NCBI GenBank assembly: GCA_016125135.1
Contig: WGMJ01000008.1
Coordinates: forward strand, 1 to 44,413
Direction of reading: 5' to 3'
DNA length: 44,413 nt
DNA from: Alphaproteobacteria bacterium
Lineage (GTDB): Bacteria > Pseudomonadota > Alphaproteobacteria > Micavibrionales > Micavibrionaceae
The notes beneath the pieces are model-generated. The model was not told the origin of the DNA. It did not search any database and was given only the letters and a program-made list of their open reading frames with translations. Of this stretch, positions 833 to 35,326 are shown in pieces. The position numbers were made by a program, and so were the translations under genes. Position 1 is the first letter of the stretch; every line of letters starts with the position of its first letter.

Positions 833-2101
833 TTATTCATGGAACTCCGCCATTTCCGGTATGCGGTTAAACGCAACCTTGGTACCAATGTAACCTGCTG
901 CTGTGCGTGGGGCGGGGCCGTATTGCACAGTTTCTGCGCCGTAGCGTTTGTTCAAATCATCAATGACTTGCGAGAGGCTTAGGTTTTTCTGTTGTAAATC
1001 CTTGTAGCGTTCGGATGTGCTATCAAACAGGTCAGGTGTAATTTGCCGTGTATTCACAAGCCCGTGCATGGTCACGGATACTTTTTTCAGGCGGCGGGGC
1101 TTTAATACATCCAGCATCCCGCCCCAAAGCTCATCAAGCGCTTTCAGGAAGGTGAAGTTATCTTGCGAAGGCTGCAACTGAACGCCGCCACTCCATGCGC
1201 GTTTATCGTCTGTCCGTACACTTAAATCAAAGCGCGTAGCGTGCATTTCCATCCGGCGCAGGCGTGAAGCGGCTTTGACAGTCAGGCGGCGCGTTACCTG
1301 CTTTGCCTGTGTAGGCGCGCGCAAAGCGGTATCAAGAATACGGGAATGGCCAACCATGGAGCGGTTTGTTTCACGGTCAGGTACGTCAAACCCGTGTAAA
1401 TTATACCAGAAACGCTCACCTTCAACACTACCCCAAACTTTGCGGGCGTGTTTGGGTGAAATATTCCAGAGGTCTTCGACGCTTGTAATGCCAGCGCGGT
1501 TCAAACGTTCTTCCATGGCAACGTTAATACCGGGTAGATCGCGTAGTTCCAGCGCAAAAAGTTTTTCTGTCAGATTCTGGTGCGTTAGAATAACAAGTCC
1601 GTTAGGCTTCTGCATATCGCTAGCAACTTTTGCCAAAAAGCCGTTCGGTGCAATACCAATCGAGCAGGTAATATGTGTGCCAACATTTTCAGCAAGCGCT
1701 TTTTTAATGCGCAAGGCTACCTGGGTTGCTGATTCACTATTTTGTTTGTTCGGCGGCAAGCGGCTTGAAAGTTCGTCAATCGACCAGACTTTATTGATAG
1801 GCGTGTGTTTAATAACTTCATTAATAACGCGGTGATGATAATCAACATATTTATCATGACGCGCGAGGACAGTATGAAGTTGCGGGCACATTTTGCGGGC
1901 ATCATAAATTTTTGTGCCTGTTTTGATTCCGTATTTCTTCGCTTCGCGTGAGGCGGCGATTGCGCAGGTGCCGTCTGTCATCATTGGCACAATGGCAATT
2001 GGTTTGCCGCGCAGTTGTGGGTTCTCCTGCTGCTCTACACTGGCGAAGTAGCTGTTAAGATCGAGAAAAAGCCATTTAGGGCCTGAGACGGGCTGAAACA
2101 T
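833..2101 (-). CDS. Y-family DNA polymerase (DinB/UmuC type), SOS-regulated
   Basis: This 422-residue translesion polymerase carries the family's acidic active site: DLNSYFASVEQ near residues 14-24 (metal ligand D14) and SIDE at 107-110 (D109, E110). A helix-hairpin-helix region follows (LPGIN, around 190), and the C-terminal third is the little-finger type region. Such enzymes copy damaged templates without proofreading. The start at 2101 follows GAAAGG-type ribosome bases. Its promoter (TTGTAT at 2159-2164, TATAAG at 2136-2141 on the minus strand, 17-base spacer) is flanked by two LexA boxes, so induction by DNA damage is likely. The D-L-N active site and fused C-terminus differ from classical Pol IV, so I leave the symbol open between dinB-like and umuC-like. 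Confidence 0.88.
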   Translation of the reverse strand: MFQPVSGPKWLFLDLNSYFASVEQQENPQLRGKPIAIVPMMTDGTCAIAASREAKKYGIKTGTKIYDARKMCPQLHTVLARHDKYVDYHHRVINEVIKHTPINKVWSIDELSSRLPPNKQNSESATQVALRIKKALAENVGTHITCSIGIAPNGFLAKVASDMQKPNGLVILTHQNLTEKLFALELRDLPGINVAMEERLNRAGITSVEDLWNISPKHARKVWGSVEGERFWYNLHGFDVPDRETNRSMVGHSRILDTALRAPTQAKQVTRRLTVKAASRLRRMEMHATRFDLSVRTDDKRAWSGGVQLQPSQDNFTFLKALDELWGGMLDVLKPRRLKKVSVTMHGLVNTRQITPDLFDSTSERYKDLQQKNLSLSQVIDDLNKRYGAETVQYGPAPRTAAGYIGTKVAFNRIPEMAEFHE

Positions 2102-2119
2102 GAGGGGTTACCTTTCTTT

Positions 2120-2168
2120 TTGTTCTTTATATGTTCTTATACTATTTTAATGAGAACAATACAAGAAC
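2120..2168. promoter_or_regulatory. Divergent SOS promoter region with two LexA boxes
   Basis: Two alphaproteobacterial-type LexA boxes are visible: GTTC-N7-GTTC at 2122-2136 and its reverse complement GAAC-N7-GAAC at 2154-2168. On the minus strand they flank a promoter with -35 TTGTAT (2159-2164) and -10 TATAAG (2136-2141), spacer 17. On the plus strand a second promoter candidate is TTGTTC (2120-2125) and TATTTT (2143-2148), spacer 17, so one box covers a -35 and the other sits at the start point for both directions. The architecture fits LexA repression of both the polymerase and the gene at 2251. Confidence 0.75.
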
Positions 2169-2250
2169 AAAATAAATCCTTGAGTTTCCAAGGCTCCGGT
2201 CGCTAGGATGTTTTCAATAATTAAAAACAAAGACAGGTAGGAGGGTAAAA

Positions 2251-2976
2251 ATGCTGGCGCAGATTTTCGCAAGCCTCAGAAACGGAGAGGATACATCCGG
2301 CATCGTTATATCCGAAAGCCTTCTTACAAGCTGGTTCCGGATCGGTGACCCTTCTTACAAAGCCTGCGATAATTTTTTATCCCATCCGCGTTTTATTCTG
2401 TATCAGGAACTGGATTTCACAACGGTCTATGACTACAAGCACTATCAATTTGCGGCATGGGAAAGCGATGGACAAGATCGACATGAGCGGTCAGATGGTC
2501 TGGTGTGTATGTTCTCGCCGCTTATTGCAACGGGGTACAGAAAGAACGGAGACAATGCCGAGTTTGCAATCGGTGTACAAAGAAAGCTGGACTGGAAAGT
2601 GCTCCCGCCGGATCCAAAATCCATGATGCTTGTTCCCGAGATTGCTTCAAAGGATTTATATAACCCGCTTATTTTTGCAATGAGTGGCACGATAGATGAT
2701 ACGGGTAGAGTACGTATTCGCAAACTCATGCTTCCGCAGTTTGATAACGAAGGCAATTTCAAAAAGTTGAAAGCTGAAAAACCAAGCGCTGAAAATATTA
2801 TACGCGGGCTTTGGTATGGTGTGCGGGCAGCCAAATTTGTGCTTGATAATAACCGGAATATTCCAATGCACTGGCTTTACAAGGAAGTGCCGAAAAGAAG
2901 CCTTGCCGAAATGGCTGCCGAGTTGAAGCTAGTGCTTCCGGCACCTCAGTATGCGGCCGCTTCTCCAGCGCCTTAA
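2251..2976 (+). CDS. Unknown protein, probably SOS-induced
   Basis: This is a 241-residue soluble protein with a strong ribosome binding site (AGGAGGG) about five bases before the ATG. I recognise no domain. Visible features are an aromatic, acidic N-terminal half, a basic stretch (RVRIRKLMLP) and an Ala/Pro-rich C-terminal tail. No signal peptide or membrane segment is seen. It diverges from the Y-family polymerase and shares the region with two LexA boxes; the plus-strand promoter candidate would give a leader of about 95 bases. The shared operator suggests a role in the DNA-damage response, which is inference. It is not imuA, imuB or dnaE2-like by sequence. Confidence 0.75.
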   Translation: MLAQIFASLRNGEDTSGIVISESLLTSWFRIGDPSYKACDNFLSHPRFILYQELDFTTVYDYKHYQFAAWESDGQDRHERSDGLVCMFSPLIATGYRKNGDNAEFAIGVQRKLDWKVLPPDPKSMMLVPEIASKDLYNPLIFAMSGTIDDTGRVRIRKLMLPQFDNEGNFKKLKAEKPSAENIIRGLWYGVRAAKFVLDNNRNIPMHWLYKEVPKRSLAEMAAELKLVLPAPQYAAASPAP

Positions 2977-2989
2977 CGCCGATCCCAGA

Positions 2990-3005
2990 TTTAGCCAAGG
3001 CTAAA
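2990..3005. promoter_or_regulatory. Palindromic operator candidate upstream of mntR
   Basis: TTTAGCCAAGGCTAAA is a perfect 7-base inverted repeat around a central AA, in the 67-base gap before mntR. A TTGACA hexamer follows at 3010-3015. Manganese regulators of the DtxR/MntR family bind short palindromes of this general form, so an autoregulatory MntR site is plausible. No good -10 hexamer is visible. Confidence 0.5.
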
Positions 3006-3043
3006 CAGTTTGACAATCCATTCGTTTTGGGGGAAAGTGCCCT

Positions 3044-3463
3044 ATGACAAAAACCAGCCTTGCCAAACCCGAGATACAAGCGGCACGTTTTAGCCGTATC
3101 CGGGAGGCGCACCAGACCGAAACCACCGAAGACTATGTCGAGCTGATTGCTGACCTTATAGATGTGCAAGGGGAAGCGCGCCCTGCCGATCTGGCCGAAC
3201 GTTTTGGTGTATCGGCACCGACAGTAAATAAAACAATTCAAAGGCTTGTGCGCGACGGGTTTGTAACCCAGCGGCCTTACCGCGCACTGTTCCTCACAGA
3301 AAAAGGTGAAAAACTGGCCGCAGAAAGCAAGGCGCGGCACGAGATCGTTCTGGCTTTCCTATTAAAGCTGGGCGTACCGGCAGAAACGGCCGAAGCCGAT
3401 GCCGAGGGGATCGAGCACCATATCAGCCCCGAAACCCTTCAAATCTTTGAAAGATTCCTTTAA
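3044..3463 (+). CDS. mntR: Manganese-responsive transcriptional regulator MntR (DtxR family)
   Basis: This 139-residue protein has the DtxR/MntR plan. A winged helix-turn-helix lies around residues 45-75 (PADLAERFGVSAPTVNKTIQRL). A dimerisation segment follows with the metal-ligand pattern RHE (98-100) and E-x-x-E-H (121-125, DAEGIEHH). It lacks the C-terminal SH3-like domain, as in MntR. These proteins bind DNA when loaded with Mn(II) and control Mn uptake or efflux genes. No transporter gene lies nearby, so its targets are elsewhere apart from the palindrome just upstream. The ribosome site GGGGGAAAG precedes ATG 3044. Confidence 0.88.
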   Translation: MTKTSLAKPEIQAARFSRIREAHQTETTEDYVELIADLIDVQGEARPADLAERFGVSAPTVNKTIQRLVRDGFVTQRPYRALFLTEKGEKLAAESKARHEIVLAFLLKLGVPAETAEADAEGIEHHISPETLQIFERFL

Positions 3464-3479
3464 AAACCCACCGATTTTA

Positions 3480-3509
3480 TTGACATAATGATTGTTACTG
3501 TGGTAGTTT
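3480..3509 (+). promoter_or_regulatory. Promoter for the HEXXH gene, probably leaderless
   Basis: TTGACA (3480-3485) and an extended -10, TG-G-TAGTTT (3501-3509), are separated by 18 bases. The predicted start point falls at about 3515-3517, coinciding with ATG 3517. The core ATTGACATAAT recurs at 33055-33065. Confidence 0.6.
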
Positions 3510-3516
3510 TCAGGCC

Positions 3517-5070
3517 ATGGTTTTGCTAAAAAAGCGATATGTGCACCCGGGCGGTTACGGTAATACGGGCCGCTTTGATGATTGCGGGCTAGATGAGCAT
3601 CTGGCTGAAGCCTGTATCGCGGCTATTAAAGAGACGTTTCGTGGTGAATGGGAAGTCTTTAAAGAGCGTAGCAGGTATTCAAACGCGCTTCCTGATCCTC
3701 TAAAATCCTCAACGCGTGAATATGTTCAGGAAAAAATGAGCGCGCGCGAGGCAACAAGCACGCTTTTGTATGTTACGGATGACTATTCCTATGATAACGA
3801 GGTTGCTGGCAAAATTATACTAGAAAGCGGATTTTTTTCTGATGCGGAGCGTCGCAAAGATTTCTGCTCCCTGACAGAGATCGATAACTTAAGCTTTCCG
3901 GATGACATCCAAGATGCAATTGATGATCTTTATGATGATCTGAATGAGCTGGGTTATCTGGTAACGCATAGTGACCGTGCACTCAAGGAGATCTTTCAGC
4001 ATCTGCCACCTGAAACCGCAGGGCTTGCTATTTTTCTTGAGTTAGCGCAAGGGAAACCTTTATTGCCCGATGTGTTCCGGCAACCACTGGCATTTTACCT
4101 TACGCAGAATGGCGGAACAGATCTTGTATGTAGGGTTATCGAGCTTGCCAAAATGTCAAAAGGGCAAAGGCAATACCGCTATCAGTCGGACGAAGCCCTT
4201 ATAGAGCATATAAATGACTTGCAAGACCATCTTAAACAGGTTGTTTTTGTCCAATTAGGGATGATTGATAGAGAAAATCTACCCGAGGAAATTTTCAAGG
4301 ATTTTTTATATGCGCATGCGAATGCGCCTGTGGCTGGGTTCAGGGAAAGATATAACCTTGATTCACCGATGCTGAAGAGCTTGAAGAACTTCCACGAGCA
4401 GAAGCAGAAATATTTATTGCAGATGATTGACCAAGATCCGGATTCGGCCCTTGCGCAACGCTATCTACAAGCGATGCAGAATTGGCCCGAGATGGCCGAA
4501 GTGGAAAAAGAAGCATTCCTTAATCAGCATCTTGCAATGCTGTCCAATCTATACGGCACAAAATTCTGTCCTGAGATGAGCATTGTTGATGTCGTCGATG
4601 AAAAGGCTAAAAATGATTTTTTGGGGCAGCAAGCGCCGGCCGAAACAGATGATGAGAAAGTGGAAAACGCGCTCGGGAAGATAAAAATAAAAAGAAGTGC
4701 ACTTCCAAATTTTGTAGACTCATTGGCCATCGTGACGCATGAATTTATTCATGGGTTTGAAGATTGGATGTCATACCGGCAGGATAAAGATTTTTTACGT
4801 GGCATATCCAAAGAAGCAAGAATGCTTTTTCCGCGTATAAAAGCAGGTTCATGGCAGGAGGCGACAGCGCTGTCTATTACTTTCAATGGCGGGGATGATT
4901 ACTATGAGAGCGAAGAAGGCTCTACCCGTTGTGAAAGGCAGTTCCGTGAACGTCACGCGGGCTTTGTCGAGGATCTTTATGGCTCGCAATTTTCTGCAAG
5001 GCTTGCAGTCATACAAGGCAATGCCCAGCAGAAAAATCTTGAACAAGCATTTGTACTGAAAGTTGCCTAG
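3517..5070 (+). CDS. Unknown protein with a zinc-metalloprotease HEXXH motif
   Basis: This is a 517-residue, largely acidic protein without signal peptide or membrane segments. HEFIH at residues 408-412, set in a hydrophobic helix (SLAIVTHEFIHGFEDW), is a zincin zinc site with glutamate as the catalytic base. A downstream ERQFRERHA segment (E478, H480) offers a third zinc ligand, as in gluzincins. The first 350 residues show no domain I know; they contain helical, charged stretches. It is transcribed from its own TTGACA promoter placed so that the message may start at the AUG. Its 3' end overlaps convergent queA by four bases. Intracellular peptidase, secreted effector and toxin are all open; the lack of a Sec signal argues against Sec export. 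Confidence 0.72.
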   Translation: MVLLKKRYVHPGGYGNTGRFDDCGLDEHLAEACIAAIKETFRGEWEVFKERSRYSNALPDPLKSSTREYVQEKMSAREATSTLLYVTDDYSYDNEVAGKIILESGFFSDAERRKDFCSLTEIDNLSFPDDIQDAIDDLYDDLNELGYLVTHSDRALKEIFQHLPPETAGLAIFLELAQGKPLLPDVFRQPLAFYLTQNGGTDLVCRVIELAKMSKGQRQYRYQSDEALIEHINDLQDHLKQVVFVQLGMIDRENLPEEIFKDFLYAHANAPVAGFRERYNLDSPMLKSLKNFHEQKQKYLLQMIDQDPDSALAQRYLQAMQNWPEMAEVEKEAFLNQHLAMLSNLYGTKFCPEMSIVDVVDEKAKNDFLGQQAPAETDDEKVENALGKIKIKRSALPNFVDSLAIVTHEFIHGFEDWMSYRQDKDFLRGISKEARMLFPRIKAGSWQEATALSITFNGGDDYYESEEGSTRCERQFRERHAGFVEDLYGSQFSARLAVIQGNAQQKNLEQAFVLKVA

Positions 5071-6092
5071 GGCAATAACAGGCTTGTATCGCCGTAAGAA
5101 TAGAAACGGTAATTGTTTTCAATCGCGTGTTTATAAATCCCCTGCATGCGTTCCATCCCTACAAAAGCGGCAACCAGCATCAGCAAGGTTGATTTCGGCA
5201 AGTGGAAATTCGTGAGCAGGGCATCGGCAATTTTAAACTGGTAGCCGGGCTTTATAAAAATATCGGTTTCACCTGTGCCTGCTTCTAATATTCCGTTTTT
5301 ATCAGCGAGGCTTTCAATTGTGCGCATTGCGGTGGTGCCCACAGGGATAATACGCCCGCCATTCTTTTTTGTTTCATTGATCAGTGCAGCTGCTTCTTCG
5401 GTTACATGGTAACGCTCGGCATGCATAATATGCTCTTCTATATTTTCTGTACGGACGGGTTGGAATGTACCTGCCCCAACATGGAGCGTCAGCGTGGTTG
5501 ATTGCACGCCCTTTTCATGCAGTTTTGCCAGTAATTCTTCAGTATAATGAAGGCTGGCCGTGGGCGCTGCAACCGAGCCATCATATTGTGCGAAAATTGT
5601 TTGGTAATTGCTTTTGTCTTCTTGTTCGTCAGCACGGTTGATATAGGGCGGCAACGGCATGTGCCCGACTTGCTCGAGTTTTTTGTAAAGTGCGGCTTCA
5701 TCACAATTAAAACGTACTTCAACAGTACCAAGGATTTCATTCTTTGAAATAATTTCTGCTTCAAGCCCCGCATCGAACAAAACAGCTTGCCCGCGTTTCA
5801 AACGTTTTGCAGGACGCGCATAAACTTCCCAGTTATTATTGGTCATAGGTTTATGCAACAGAAACTCGACTTTCATTTCTCCACGCATGCCAAACAGCCG
5901 CGCAGGTATAACGCGCGTATTGTTGAACACAAGCAAATCATCCGCATTCAGGAAATCAGGCAGGTGTGAAACGGTGCTGTCAGTGATGTTTTGCGGGGTG
6001 CTGACAAGGAGTTTTGCGCTGTCCCGCGGGCTTGCGGGGTGCAGGGCGATTCGGCTTGTCGGCAGGGTATAATCGAACGCATCTATATGCAT
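5067..6092 (-). CDS. queA: S-adenosylmethionine:tRNA ribosyltransferase-isomerase QueA
   Basis: QueA transfers and isomerises the ribosyl group of S-adenosylmethionine onto preQ1 in tRNA, giving epoxyqueuosine at the wobble position. The start at ATG 6092 gives 341 residues beginning MHIDAFDYTLP, aligned with the family start. The longer open frame up to 6224 has low-complexity, non-family sequence and is rejected. Family blocks seen include RIALHPASPRDSAKLLV near the N-terminus, LVFNNTRVIPARL, the central SLHYTEELL and LHVGAGTFQPVR, and FHLPKSTLLMLVAAF near the C-terminus. It faces the HU gene across about 220 bases and converges on the HEXXH gene. Confidence 0.95.
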   Translation of the reverse strand: MHIDAFDYTLPTSRIALHPASPRDSAKLLVSTPQNITDSTVSHLPDFLNADDLLVFNNTRVIPARLFGMRGEMKVEFLLHKPMTNNNWEVYARPAKRLKRGQAVLFDAGLEAEIISKNEILGTVEVRFNCDEAALYKKLEQVGHMPLPPYINRADEQEDKSNYQTIFAQYDGSVAAPTASLHYTEELLAKLHEKGVQSTTLTLHVGAGTFQPVRTENIEEHIMHAERYHVTEEAAALINETKKNGGRIIPVGTTAMRTIESLADKNGILEAGTGETDIFIKPGYQFKIADALLTNFHLPKSTLLMLVAAFVGMERMQGIYKHAIENNYRFYSYGDTSLLLP

Positions 6093-6150
6093 AAGCGCAT
6101 CATAACGGGTTTTAAAAGCTAAAAAAGCCTGTTTTATGCCCAAAAAACGT

Positions 6151-6177
6151 GCTTTTTCGGTGAAAAAGCGCTTTTTT
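6151..6177 (+). repeat. Inverted repeat with trailing T-run upstream of queA and HU
   Basis: GCTTTTTC (6151-6158) and GAAAAAGC (6162-6169) form an 8-base stem with loop GGT, followed by G-CTTTTTT. It lies in the 221-base gap between queA and the HU gene. The stem is AT-rich. It could terminate stray rightward transcripts or fold in the queA leader; I cannot decide. No convincing HU promoter is visible in the rest of the gap. Confidence 0.4.
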
Positions 6178-6313
6178 CCTCTCGACAAAACGCTAAAAAC
6201 CCTTGAAATTAGGGCTATCAGCACAACACGTGTTTATAAAACCCTTATTTTACAGGGCTTCATAGCGCCTCTGTTGTCTGGCATTTAACCACTTCTTATG
6301 AGGAGAAGAAAAC

Positions 6314-6631
6314 ATGGCAGCAGCTAAAAAAGCCGCAACAGCATCACAGCCAACTGTGACACTGAAGCAAATCTCTGCAGAACTCGCAGAGAAATCAGAC
6401 ATGACGAAAAAACAGTGGAACGAACTGACAGATTCACTAGTTTCAGCAATCGTCAAGAACCTGAAAAAAGGTAACCGTATCCGTATGGCTGGTCTGGGCA
6501 TCTTGCAAGTTCGTAAGCGCGCAGCACGCATGGGCCGTAACCCAGCAACTGGCGAAACGATCAAAATTCCTGCGAAGAAAAAAGTTGCTTTCCGCGCAGC
6601 AAAAGAACTGAAAGAAGCAGTAGGCGCCTAA
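6314..6631 (+). CDS. HU/IHF-family DNA-binding protein
   Basis: This small basic nucleoid protein of 105 residues has an Ala/Lys-rich N-terminal extension (MAAAKKAATASQ) ahead of the standard HU fold: helical dimerisation region, then the DNA-binding arm GNRIRMAGLGILQVRKRAARMGRNPATGETIKIPAKK, where the RNPATGE-x-I-x-I-P-A turn at the tip is diagnostic. HU dimers bend and compact DNA. A strong ribosome site (GAGGAGAAG) precedes the ATG and a strong terminator follows, so it is a single-gene unit. The extension of about 15 residues is longer than in classical HU of about 90 residues. Confidence 0.93.
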   Translation: MAAAKKAATASQPTVTLKQISAELAEKSDMTKKQWNELTDSLVSAIVKNLKKGNRIRMAGLGILQVRKRAARMGRNPATGETIKIPAKKKVAFRAAKELKEAVGA

Positions 6632-33084: not shown

Positions 33085-33091
33085 GTTGCCC

Positions 33092-35326
33092 ATGTCCGAT
33101 GACCTACCAGACGAATTCGAAGAAGCCGCGCAAGGCGCGATGCCTGAATTTCAACCCACAAACGCGCCTGCGAAAAAATTTCTTGTCATTGATGATAAAA
33201 TGGAAATTTTGTGGAGCATGTTCGAAAGCGATCTTTCAGAGCATATCGACATTGAATTCCAAATGACAAATGCAGCATGGGATGCAATGCAGATCATGGA
33301 AGCTGACGGCGTTCCCGACGTCATTATGTTGGATGCATTCAATCTACGTGATGTTTACTTTGGGTATAATAACGCCTGCCAAATTATAGAATGGCTAAAA
33401 GAGAATCACCCTGATCGGCCTTTGCCGGATATTATATTCAGTTCCGGAGAACTTGATTATTCGGAAGATAATGCTACACGGCTATATGCAACACATGGCG
33501 TAGTTGCAGGCATCACATGTAAGAATGAATTTTCTCGTGTTGAATGGGGGCTCGACGGGCGTGATCCCTCGCATCTTTCTTATTCACATACAGGAACCGC
33601 TATTAGAAAAACCTTAAACGTTCGTTGTGGTCTGGATCTTCCTTTGACAAATGAAGGACTGAAAAAGAAATTCTACGAAACAATGAAGAGTTCCGGTGAT
33701 TTCACGCTCGAAATGCTTGAGAGCATGGTCGATGCGGGAGAAATGACGGCGCTTGAAGCATTGCAAAAGGTAAAGCCTCGTCTTTTGCAAGAAATTGATA
33801 ACTACATAGCGGGACAAAAAGAGCCGCCGGTTGCATTTAACGCACAGCCAGTTGATGGATTTCTGGAGGCTGTTGGTAATTGGTCAGCAGGCCCAGCAGC
33901 TTTATCATTAACAGAGGCGGATGATTTTATTACAAAAGCTGAGAAGCCTATTCTCGTTGTTAATCAGTTCACGCCTGAGATCTATCCGTATCTGACGAAG
34001 GTCGCAGGGGTCATTGTAAAATCGCCGGAGCTTTGCGGGCATGCTGCCATAGAACTGGGCGCGTGGGGCGTTTCAGCGCTTATCGGTTATGGGGGTGGCG
34101 ATCTGGACAACGTTAAGAGCGGCGAACCGCTTGCGCTTGATACAAGATTTAAAGGTCTCTACAGAACCAGTATAGACAAATCCAGACTCGATGATTTTCG
34201 TTACAACCAATGCCCTTTTTATAACAGCACGGAAAGCTACTATATTTACAGGTGGCAGCAGCAGCTTATGCAGGAATACGGCATAAAGGATGCGCGGCAA
34301 ACCTATACGATAGATTCTATGCAGCAGGTCGACGATATCAACTTTGGCCACTGTGGAGCAGGGTTGGTTCGCTCGGAGAGTTTGATCAAGGAAGACGCAG
34401 AGGCATTGCGCGCCGTTAAAGAGATCATATTAAGCAATGGCGGCACCGCAGATAAAAACGAATTCTTCAGGTCTGTCCAAGAGAATGTTCAAAAACTGCT
34501 TTCCCGTGGGCGTGATGGCAAGATGTTGCGCTATCGTTTGCTTGATATTCCACCATCGGAAATATTTTCATCACAAGAGCTTGACCAGATAGAAAAATCA
34601 TACGGAGACAGAAATATTCGTGGTGTACAGATGGGCCTTGCTGTGCCTGCGCTTTATGAAACACAGATAAGGGCTGTTTTTGCTGCCATCCAGCAGATTG
34701 TACAAGAGAATATACAATTCCGTGCCGATTATCCCGATGCTACCCCTAATCGTGAGCAGATTGAAATCTTTGTTCCGACTGTAAAAACAGCCGAGGAACT
34801 CGAACAAATAAAGATCATGGTTGCCGATATCGCAGCTGAATATGGGTTAACTAAAGCCAATTATAGTTTTGGTACCATGGTTGAAATGCTGGGCGCCTGT
34901 GATGACATCGAGGATATTGCAAAATTATGTGACTTCATTAGCTTTGGTATCAATGATCTGACAGAAGCTGTATTGGGCGTAAAACGAGATGACATGCTGG
35001 CACGTATAGAAGCTGCGCAACGTTCTCGCCAGACTAAAGAGCCGTATCAGATGATTTACCCGCAAGTGCTCGAAAAGATGCACGAAACAATTACAAGGGC
35101 GCGCGTTGTCAAGCCGGAGATTTCAATAGGCGTATGCGGTAGTGGCTCATCTGATGTGAAGTCATTTGTTGCGCTGCATGATCTTGCGGTTGATAGCATT
35201 TCCATGCAACCGGGTGACGATAATTTTACCATTCTGCCCATTCTCGCCGCGTTCGAAATGGCCGAGCAGTACGAAAAACGCAAACAAAAGCTTGAAACTA
35301 CGCCACCAGCGCATAATATGCCCTGA
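33092..35326 (+). CDS. Receiver domain fused to PEP-utilising phosphohistidine and PEP-binding domains
   Basis: The protein has 744 residues from ATG 33092. Residues 27-160 look like a response-regulator receiver: D34-D35 (VIDDK), phosphoacceptor D81 (VIMLDAF), S117 (IIFSSG) and K144 (ITCKN). Residues about 255-350 match the swivelling phosphohistidine domain of PPDK, PEP synthase and PTS enzyme I, with H317 in CGHAAIELG. Residues about 395-725 match the PEP-binding barrel: R427 (GLVRSE), R482 (YRLLDIPP), E598 (GTMVEML), N621 (FGINDLTE) and C682 (GVCGSG), the equivalents of the PPDK active-site residues. The N-terminal ATP-grasp domain of PPDK and the HPr-binding domain of enzyme I are both absent. 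This suggests PEP-dependent phosphorylation of its own histidine coupled to a receiver. Product and partner are unknown. It lies downstream of cckA and two bases before a HAD gene. Confidence 0.82.
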   Translation: MSDDLPDEFEEAAQGAMPEFQPTNAPAKKFLVIDDKMEILWSMFESDLSEHIDIEFQMTNAAWDAMQIMEADGVPDVIMLDAFNLRDVYFGYNNACQIIEWLKENHPDRPLPDIIFSSGELDYSEDNATRLYATHGVVAGITCKNEFSRVEWGLDGRDPSHLSYSHTGTAIRKTLNVRCGLDLPLTNEGLKKKFYETMKSSGDFTLEMLESMVDAGEMTALEALQKVKPRLLQEIDNYIAGQKEPPVAFNAQPVDGFLEAVGNWSAGPAALSLTEADDFITKAEKPILVVNQFTPEIYPYLTKVAGVIVKSPELCGHAAIELGAWGVSALIGYGGGDLDNVKSGEPLALDTRFKGLYRTSIDKSRLDDFRYNQCPFYNSTESYYIYRWQQQLMQEYGIKDARQTYTIDSMQQVDDINFGHCGAGLVRSESLIKEDAEALRAVKEIILSNGGTADKNEFFRSVQENVQKLLSRGRDGKMLRYRLLDIPPSEIFSSQELDQIEKSYGDRNIRGVQMGLAVPALYETQIRAVFAAIQQIVQENIQFRADYPDATPNREQIEIFVPTVKTAEELEQIKIMVADIAAEYGLTKANYSFGTMVEMLGACDDIEDIAKLCDFISFGINDLTEAVLGVKRDDMLARIEAAQRSRQTKEPYQMIYPQVLEKMHETITRARVVKPEISIGVCGSGSSDVKSFVALHDLAVDSISMQPGDDNFTILPILAAFEMAEQYEKRKQKLETTPPAHNMP

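Follow-up and report, generated by a model that had tools for sequence, protein, structure and literature searches.

A receiver domain fused to the phosphohistidine and PEP half of a PPDK-like protein in an alphaproteobacterial order

The fusion gene and its domain layout

The window, the whole 44,413-nucleotide stretch of DNA analysed here, harbours an open reading frame in which a receiver domain is joined to the half of PPDK that carries the phosphohistidine and the PEP site (Table 1). The frame extends from the ATG at 33092 to the stop at 35326, with an alternative in-frame TTG at 33086. In the encoded protein, Pfam recognizes PEP-utilizers_C (E-value 1.4e-31, residues 416-707) and PEP-utilizers (4e-5, residues 285-350) in addition to a sub-threshold aldolase match within the barrel, while the first 280 residues are without a Pfam match. 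PPDK_N (PF01326), PEP-utilisers_N (PF05524) and Response_reg (PF00072) are not listed for the protein up to an E-value of 10, a range in which the HMMER filters discard most matches above 0.1. A preceding reading of the DNA from the sequence only had reported the loss of the ATP-grasp domain and of the HPr-binding domain, in agreement with neither being matched by Pfam; of the three domain profiles that it had proposed for a search, PF00391 and PF02896 were found, while PF00072 remained unmatched and the receiver became visible by fold and profile comparison. No output domain was found in the fusion protein.

Table 1. Coordinates of the fusion gene, its predicted domains and the gene that follows it.
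Feature	Position	Strand	Basis and remarks
REC-PPDK-half fusion protein	33092..35326	+	744 aa plus stop; open frame, Pfam, structure model
Predicted receiver domain, residues 28-155 (D34/D35 acid pair, D81 phospho-acceptor, S117/S118, K144)	33173..33556	+	AF2 fragment, Foldseek, VIA-align, hhalign
Helical linker, residues ~189-260, corresponding to the segment that joins the ATP-grasp to the swivelling domain in PPDK	33656..33871	+	VIA-align, phmmer
Swivelling phosphohistidine domain, residues ~265-350, with H317	33884..34141	+	PF00391 4e-5
PEP-binding barrel, residues ~398-730, with R427, R482, R510, E598, N621, D622, C682	34283..35281	+	PF02896, PPDK alignment, VIA-align
HAD-like gene, 228 aa	35329..36015	+	PF00702 9.4e-4, under the curated cut-off

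The domain order of the fusion protein is receiver, linker, phosphohistidine domain and PEP domain as compared with ATP-grasp, linker, phosphohistidine domain and PEP domain in PPDK. As similarity to PPDK begins at around residue 190, just after the receiver, the receiver occupies the place of the ATP-grasp domain. The full-length structure model has a pTM of 0.56, with residues 311-317 and 331-378 at a pLDDT below 50.

Neighbouring genes and genome content

A gene for a PAS-HisKA-HATPase-REC protein is located 70 bases upstream of the fusion gene, which corresponds to the cckA that the sequence-only reading had placed beside it. On the other side, the HAD-like gene begins two bases after the fusion gene stop and is a possible operon partner. 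A link to cckA was rejected, as related kinase/receiver genes adjoin the family gene only in the loci L081 (a histidine kinase gene) and L076 (a receiver-ATPase gene), while in the fetched loci beyond these two and the window no gene of the kinase/receiver cluster is found beside the family gene. Equally rejected was a link to the HAD gene, which is without a matching gene in the other fetched loci and unlike the N-terminal extension of L080. This member (G112, 2508-5222) possesses approximately 170 extra N-terminal residues that appear HAD-like by eye, match the Pfam Hydrolase model with an E-value of 0.24 and show zero detectable similarity to the HAD protein of the window. Gene calls around the family gene followed a simple longest-ORF rule, which in L068, L075 and L079 chose wrong-strand frames over the family gene, so that these neighbourhoods are unreliable. 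The loci L065 (11984-15111) and L083 (1355-4681), from two genomes, share three consecutive gene clusters that lie no more than about 5 kb from the family gene, by eye two glycosyltransferase-like genes and one small lipoprotein-like gene.

The source genome, which is 99.8% complete, displays 47 PF00072 matches, 44 of them above the cut-off, which makes an ordinary kinase partner possible. A search for HPr (PF00381) at an E-value of 0.01 gave zero matches in the source genome, whereas 7 of the 14 control genomes had one. Its PEP-utilizers_C genes are confined to those of PPDK, the window protein and a paralogue, without an enzyme I-type gene among them, and the PPDK gene is located on another contig than the fusion gene. 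With no HPr match and only these three PEP-utilizers_C genes, the usual acceptor for the H317 phosphate was not found.

A receiver fold without a Pfam match

Searches with the full-length model list PPDKs and no receivers; because PPDK fills the list, the receiver was folded and searched alone. The AF2 model of the fragment (residues 22-186, folded with eight relatives) reaches a pLDDT of 85 and a pTM of 0.83 and consists of five alternating strands and helices in (beta-alpha)5 order. In the models, D34 and D35 follow strand 1, D81 ends strand 3, S117 and S118 follow strand 4 and K144 follows strand 5. Upon comparison of this fragment with the PDB, 40 of the 50 Foldseek matches listed can be recognized as response regulators or receivers from their titles or known names, phosphorylated Spo0A being one of them, and the other 10 are all 6oec chains, in which a coiled coil is fused to the receiver 3H5I. 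Among these 50 matches listed, E-values are modest (best 5.7e-4, five rows below 0.001) and the TM-score to the receiver query ranges from 0.41 to 0.54; VIA-align aligned the fragment with Z-scores of 10.3-12.0 across 112-126 residues.

Profile comparison by hhalign points in the same direction. A profile of 17 family N-termini matched a profile of 30 receivers of the own genome at 97.3% with an E-value of 2.5e-11, which applies to one comparison, while four other parts of the fusion protein reached 0.2-6.0% against the receiver profile and 20 receiver profiles with shuffled columns did not exceed 1.0%. When the profile was restricted to the seven VDD-type members, the match to the receivers was weaker (96.2%, E-value 2.2e-9, 83 columns). 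As the AF2 fragment, the fold searches and the controlled profile comparison agree, the predicted N-terminal receiver domain is well supported although Pfam is silent, and a chance or misread receiver motif is ruled out by the fold, the controlled profile comparison and conservation. A receiver fold had been claimed for residues 27-160, and it is a receiver that the fragment model and the fold searches give. The residues named for it, D34, D35, D81, S117 and K144, are all present, but the serine conserved in the relatives is S118; the window protein has the complete receiver set DD, D, T/S and K with D34, D35, D81, S118 and K144. Since the Pfam receiver model is silent on this protein, counts of receivers that rely on the model would miss the family.

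The PPDK-type PEP half

In phmmer searches against solved structures, the nearest relatives are PPDKs, with similarity from residue 178-211 onward. H317 and the five residues previously assigned to a PPDK-type PEP site, R427, R482, E598, N621 and C682, all align on PPDK residues, so that the assignment by sequence holds in its entirety; R510 aligns with a PPDK arginine that contacts phosphate. Structural alignment by VIA-align lets PPDK chains start at model residue 187-205 and run to residue 724, with Z-scores up to 35.5. With the NCBIfam PPDK model TIGR01828, the fusion protein scores 128 bits, far short of the cut-off at 843. Residues and fold support the prediction that the barrel binds Mg-PEP and phosphorylates H317.

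Distribution of the family

A profile of residues 26-332 (E-value 1e-8) matched 18 of the 142 genomes of the order, source genome included, in 12 of 54 genera; among the 20 match rows, the window's own included, G046:C145 and G097:C43 are partial. The survey across genomes proposed with the initial reading thus finds the fusion to be recurrent, and an origin as a single-genome fusion or assembly join is ruled out by these matches. The source genome holds two copies, the paralogue being 29% identical to the window protein. Among 385 genomes drawn from the class, only the source genome matches the same profile at the same threshold with up to five candidates scored per genome, and it is again the only match of a whole-protein profile (E-value 1e-70, up to two candidates scored per genome) among the 385 class and 398 phylum genomes; these scans could miss a member as divergent as L192, which is absent from the order-scan matches.

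Scanning of the named genome collection with the single protein gave zero matches, while the C-terminal alignment retrieved 28 loci. Nine of these are family members (L084-L092, L085 partial) labelled Alphaproteobacteria, Proteobacteria, uncultured proteobacterium or Micavibrio sp.; eight are contigs already found in the other scans and only L084 is new. The remaining 19 match only in the linker-His-PEP part, like PPDK. So far, the family has been found only in the source order and in L084, a locus of unstated order. A viral origin of the fusion protein was rejected, as the 13 pattern matches contained zero relatives. In a quick tree whose branches are long (5.0 for L192, 2.4 for the window protein) and in which false joins are possible, 21 family rows and L192 fall on one side of a branch with an SH-aLRT of 98 and the PPDK and EI-like rows on the other.

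Two loci displayed features of their own. The member L084 (134-2527, contig CAIXHP010000029.1) starts without the first receiver acids, and by eye the opposite-strand frames beside it (3147-6378) resemble portal and head proteins of phages. The copy of G136 is apparently split over two contigs, L079 (8268-9410) and L078, with one in-frame TAA.

Conservation and selection

The family evolves rapidly around few fixed residues. Among the 17 full-length members, an alignment from which rows L077, L078 and L082 were dropped beforehand and to which L079, L084 and L192 never belonged, mean pairwise identity in the receiver is 25% and only D35, D81 and P112 are invariant of its 128 positions; in the swivelling domain only G306 and H317 are invariant of 86 positions, and in the PEP part 23 of 333. 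Realignment of 15 of these members over residues 26-332 gave seven invariant positions including D35, D81 and H317. Considering all sequences that cover the respective position, D35 and D81 are kept in 17 of 17 and H317 in 19 of 19, while, with partial rows counted, R427, R482, E598, D622 and C682 are present in all 20 rows and N621 is present in 19 of them. The window protein is 22% identical to the other members in the receiver and 29% in the PEP part.

Other functional positions vary. The D34 column holds D in seven, Q in nine and N in one of 17 sequences, the position of R510 is an arginine in only 5 of 20 rows, and at the receiver lysine K is found in 2 of 18, the window protein and L046; a smaller alignment, of L065, L084, the window protein and two others, has K in L065 and L084 as well. 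The dN/dS ratios of two close pairs of relatives are 0.16 and 0.08 for the receiver, 0.25 and 0.06 for the swivelling domain and 0.14 and 0.05 for the PEP part, demonstrating purifying selection on all three parts in these pairs. L192 (G032, 945-3041) is a very divergent relative in which D35, D81 and the histidine are kept, while K, S and S replace R427, N621 and C682. Judged by these replacements, it is a possible non-catalytic descendant, and with its PEP site eroded, PEP is an improbable phosphate source for the receiver of L192.

A possible route from PEP to the receiver aspartate and its alternatives

Receivers obtain phosphate from histidine kinases or small acyl phosphates, while PEP feeds sugar uptake through its protein phosphotransferases. 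Transfer of phosphate from PEP to histidine is the reaction of this half in PPDK, upon which the phosphohistidine turns to the N-terminal nucleotide domain, with intermediates that are the subject of the structures 5jvn and 5lu4 according to their titles. The fusion protein is built like PPDK, with the N-terminal ATP-grasp domain swapped for a receiver. In such a protein, the C-terminal barrel would take up Mg-PEP and phosphorylate H317 on the swivelling domain, which would then turn to the N-terminal domain as in PPDK, here a receiver, where the phosphate may move from H317 to D81 with D35 presumably holding the Mg. As the receiver replaces the nucleotide domain, both phosphate residues are fixed in a fast-evolving family and HPr was not found, transfer from H317 to D81 is the simplest proposal. 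Joint conservation and the absence of HPr make the transfer plausible, yet the loss of the receiver lysine and of R510 in most relatives, the eroded PEP site of L192, the 47 PF00072 matches in the genome and the failure to find an output domain count against it, and we place this route only just short of an even chance. The receiver might in consequence convey the cell's PEP/pyruvate state with no histidine kinase involved; candidate outputs are dimerisation, action through a partner protein and passing of the phosphate to a histidine phosphotransfer protein. That the protein is a self-contained, PEP-powered response regulator, possibly relaying to a histidine phosphotransfer protein and independent of a histidine kinase, is a tentative proposal to which we assign somewhat less than an even chance.

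The fusion protein could alternatively be a response regulator with an enzymatic output, in which a histidine kinase phosphorylates D81 and thereby switches the PEP module, whose H317 then feeds an unknown protein or small acceptor. Fusions of receivers with metabolic enzymes are well established (PMC5847659), the window protein with its full DD, D, S and K set lies next to cckA, a kinase and a receiver-ATPase gene adjoin members in L081 and L076, and L192 still has its receiver although its PEP site is eroded. Against this stand the restriction of such neighbours to just three of the loci compared, window included, the lack in most members of the lysine that is normally part of the switch and the lack of an HPr in the genome to accept the H317 phosphate; we consider this explanation less likely than the route from PEP. 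The missing lysine, together with the reduced acid pair in most members and the change of R510 in 15 of 20 rows, would fit a non-catalytic sensor, in which the PEP half binds PEP or pyruvate and, with no phosphate being transferred, signals by touching the receiver fold. While fast divergence and the eroded L192 are in line with such a sensor, D81, H317 and C682 do not vary in any row counted, when little else is fixed, and a sensor would not need H317; we regard this explanation as unlikely. Finally, the fusion protein could be an accessory to PPDK that draws phosphate from PEP, possibly as part of a mixed dimer with PPDK, while its receiver would serve as a sink for phosphate or as a brake on the interconversion of PEP and pyruvate. 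The genome has a PPDK gene and PPDK is the nearest relative of the PEP barrel, but the gene is on another contig and none of the present analyses points to mixed dimers; such a role appears highly improbable.

A chain that combines a PEP site with a phosphohistidine and a receiver aspartate would unite two phosphate currencies. If the route from PEP via H317 to D81 holds true, it would constitute a direct metabolite-to-aspartate signal, linking central metabolism straight to aspartate signalling with no need for a histidine kinase. With respect to its experimental accessibility, the fusion protein is small enough for work with purified material.

Relation to known systems

The sequence-only reading knew of no described system with this architecture, a statement that is too strong as REC-PPDK combinations have been published (PMC5847659); pyruvate phosphate dikinases are also listed among the enzymatic partners of receivers lacking the aspartate (PMC4395418). 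For a receiver joined to the His-PEP half, no description came up in searches of open-access literature. The Bacteroides-type combination (PMC5847659) has, as the fusion protein does, an N-terminal receiver and part of PPDK. Four proteins of about 1000 amino acids from the order of a Bacteroidales genome (L178-L181), scanned out of many PPDK_N proteins of this size with the fetched L182 left out, all have receiver matches and PPDK_N but no PEP-utilizers, and are probably the type of protein meant in that paper. They contain the opposite, ATP-grasp half of PPDK, complementary to the half in the fusion protein.

PPDK itself (TIGR01828; PDB 5jvn, 1kbl) has the linker, the swivelling phosphohistidine and the PEP site in common with the fusion protein, which differs by a receiver instead of an ATP-grasp match and by its position on a separate, long-branched side of the tree. 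With enzyme I of the PTS and with PtsP, the PEP barrel and the phosphohistidine domain are shared, while the PPDK domain order, the lack of a match to the HPr-binding domain and the lack of an HPr in the genome set the fusion protein apart. Cumulatively, the fusion of a receiver with a His-PEP half is a real, unusual variant of receiver-enzyme fusions. As in response regulators with enzymatic output, an N-terminal receiver precedes a C-terminal enzyme module; unlike in these, the enzyme module has a phosphohistidine of its own which could in principle donate to the receiver.
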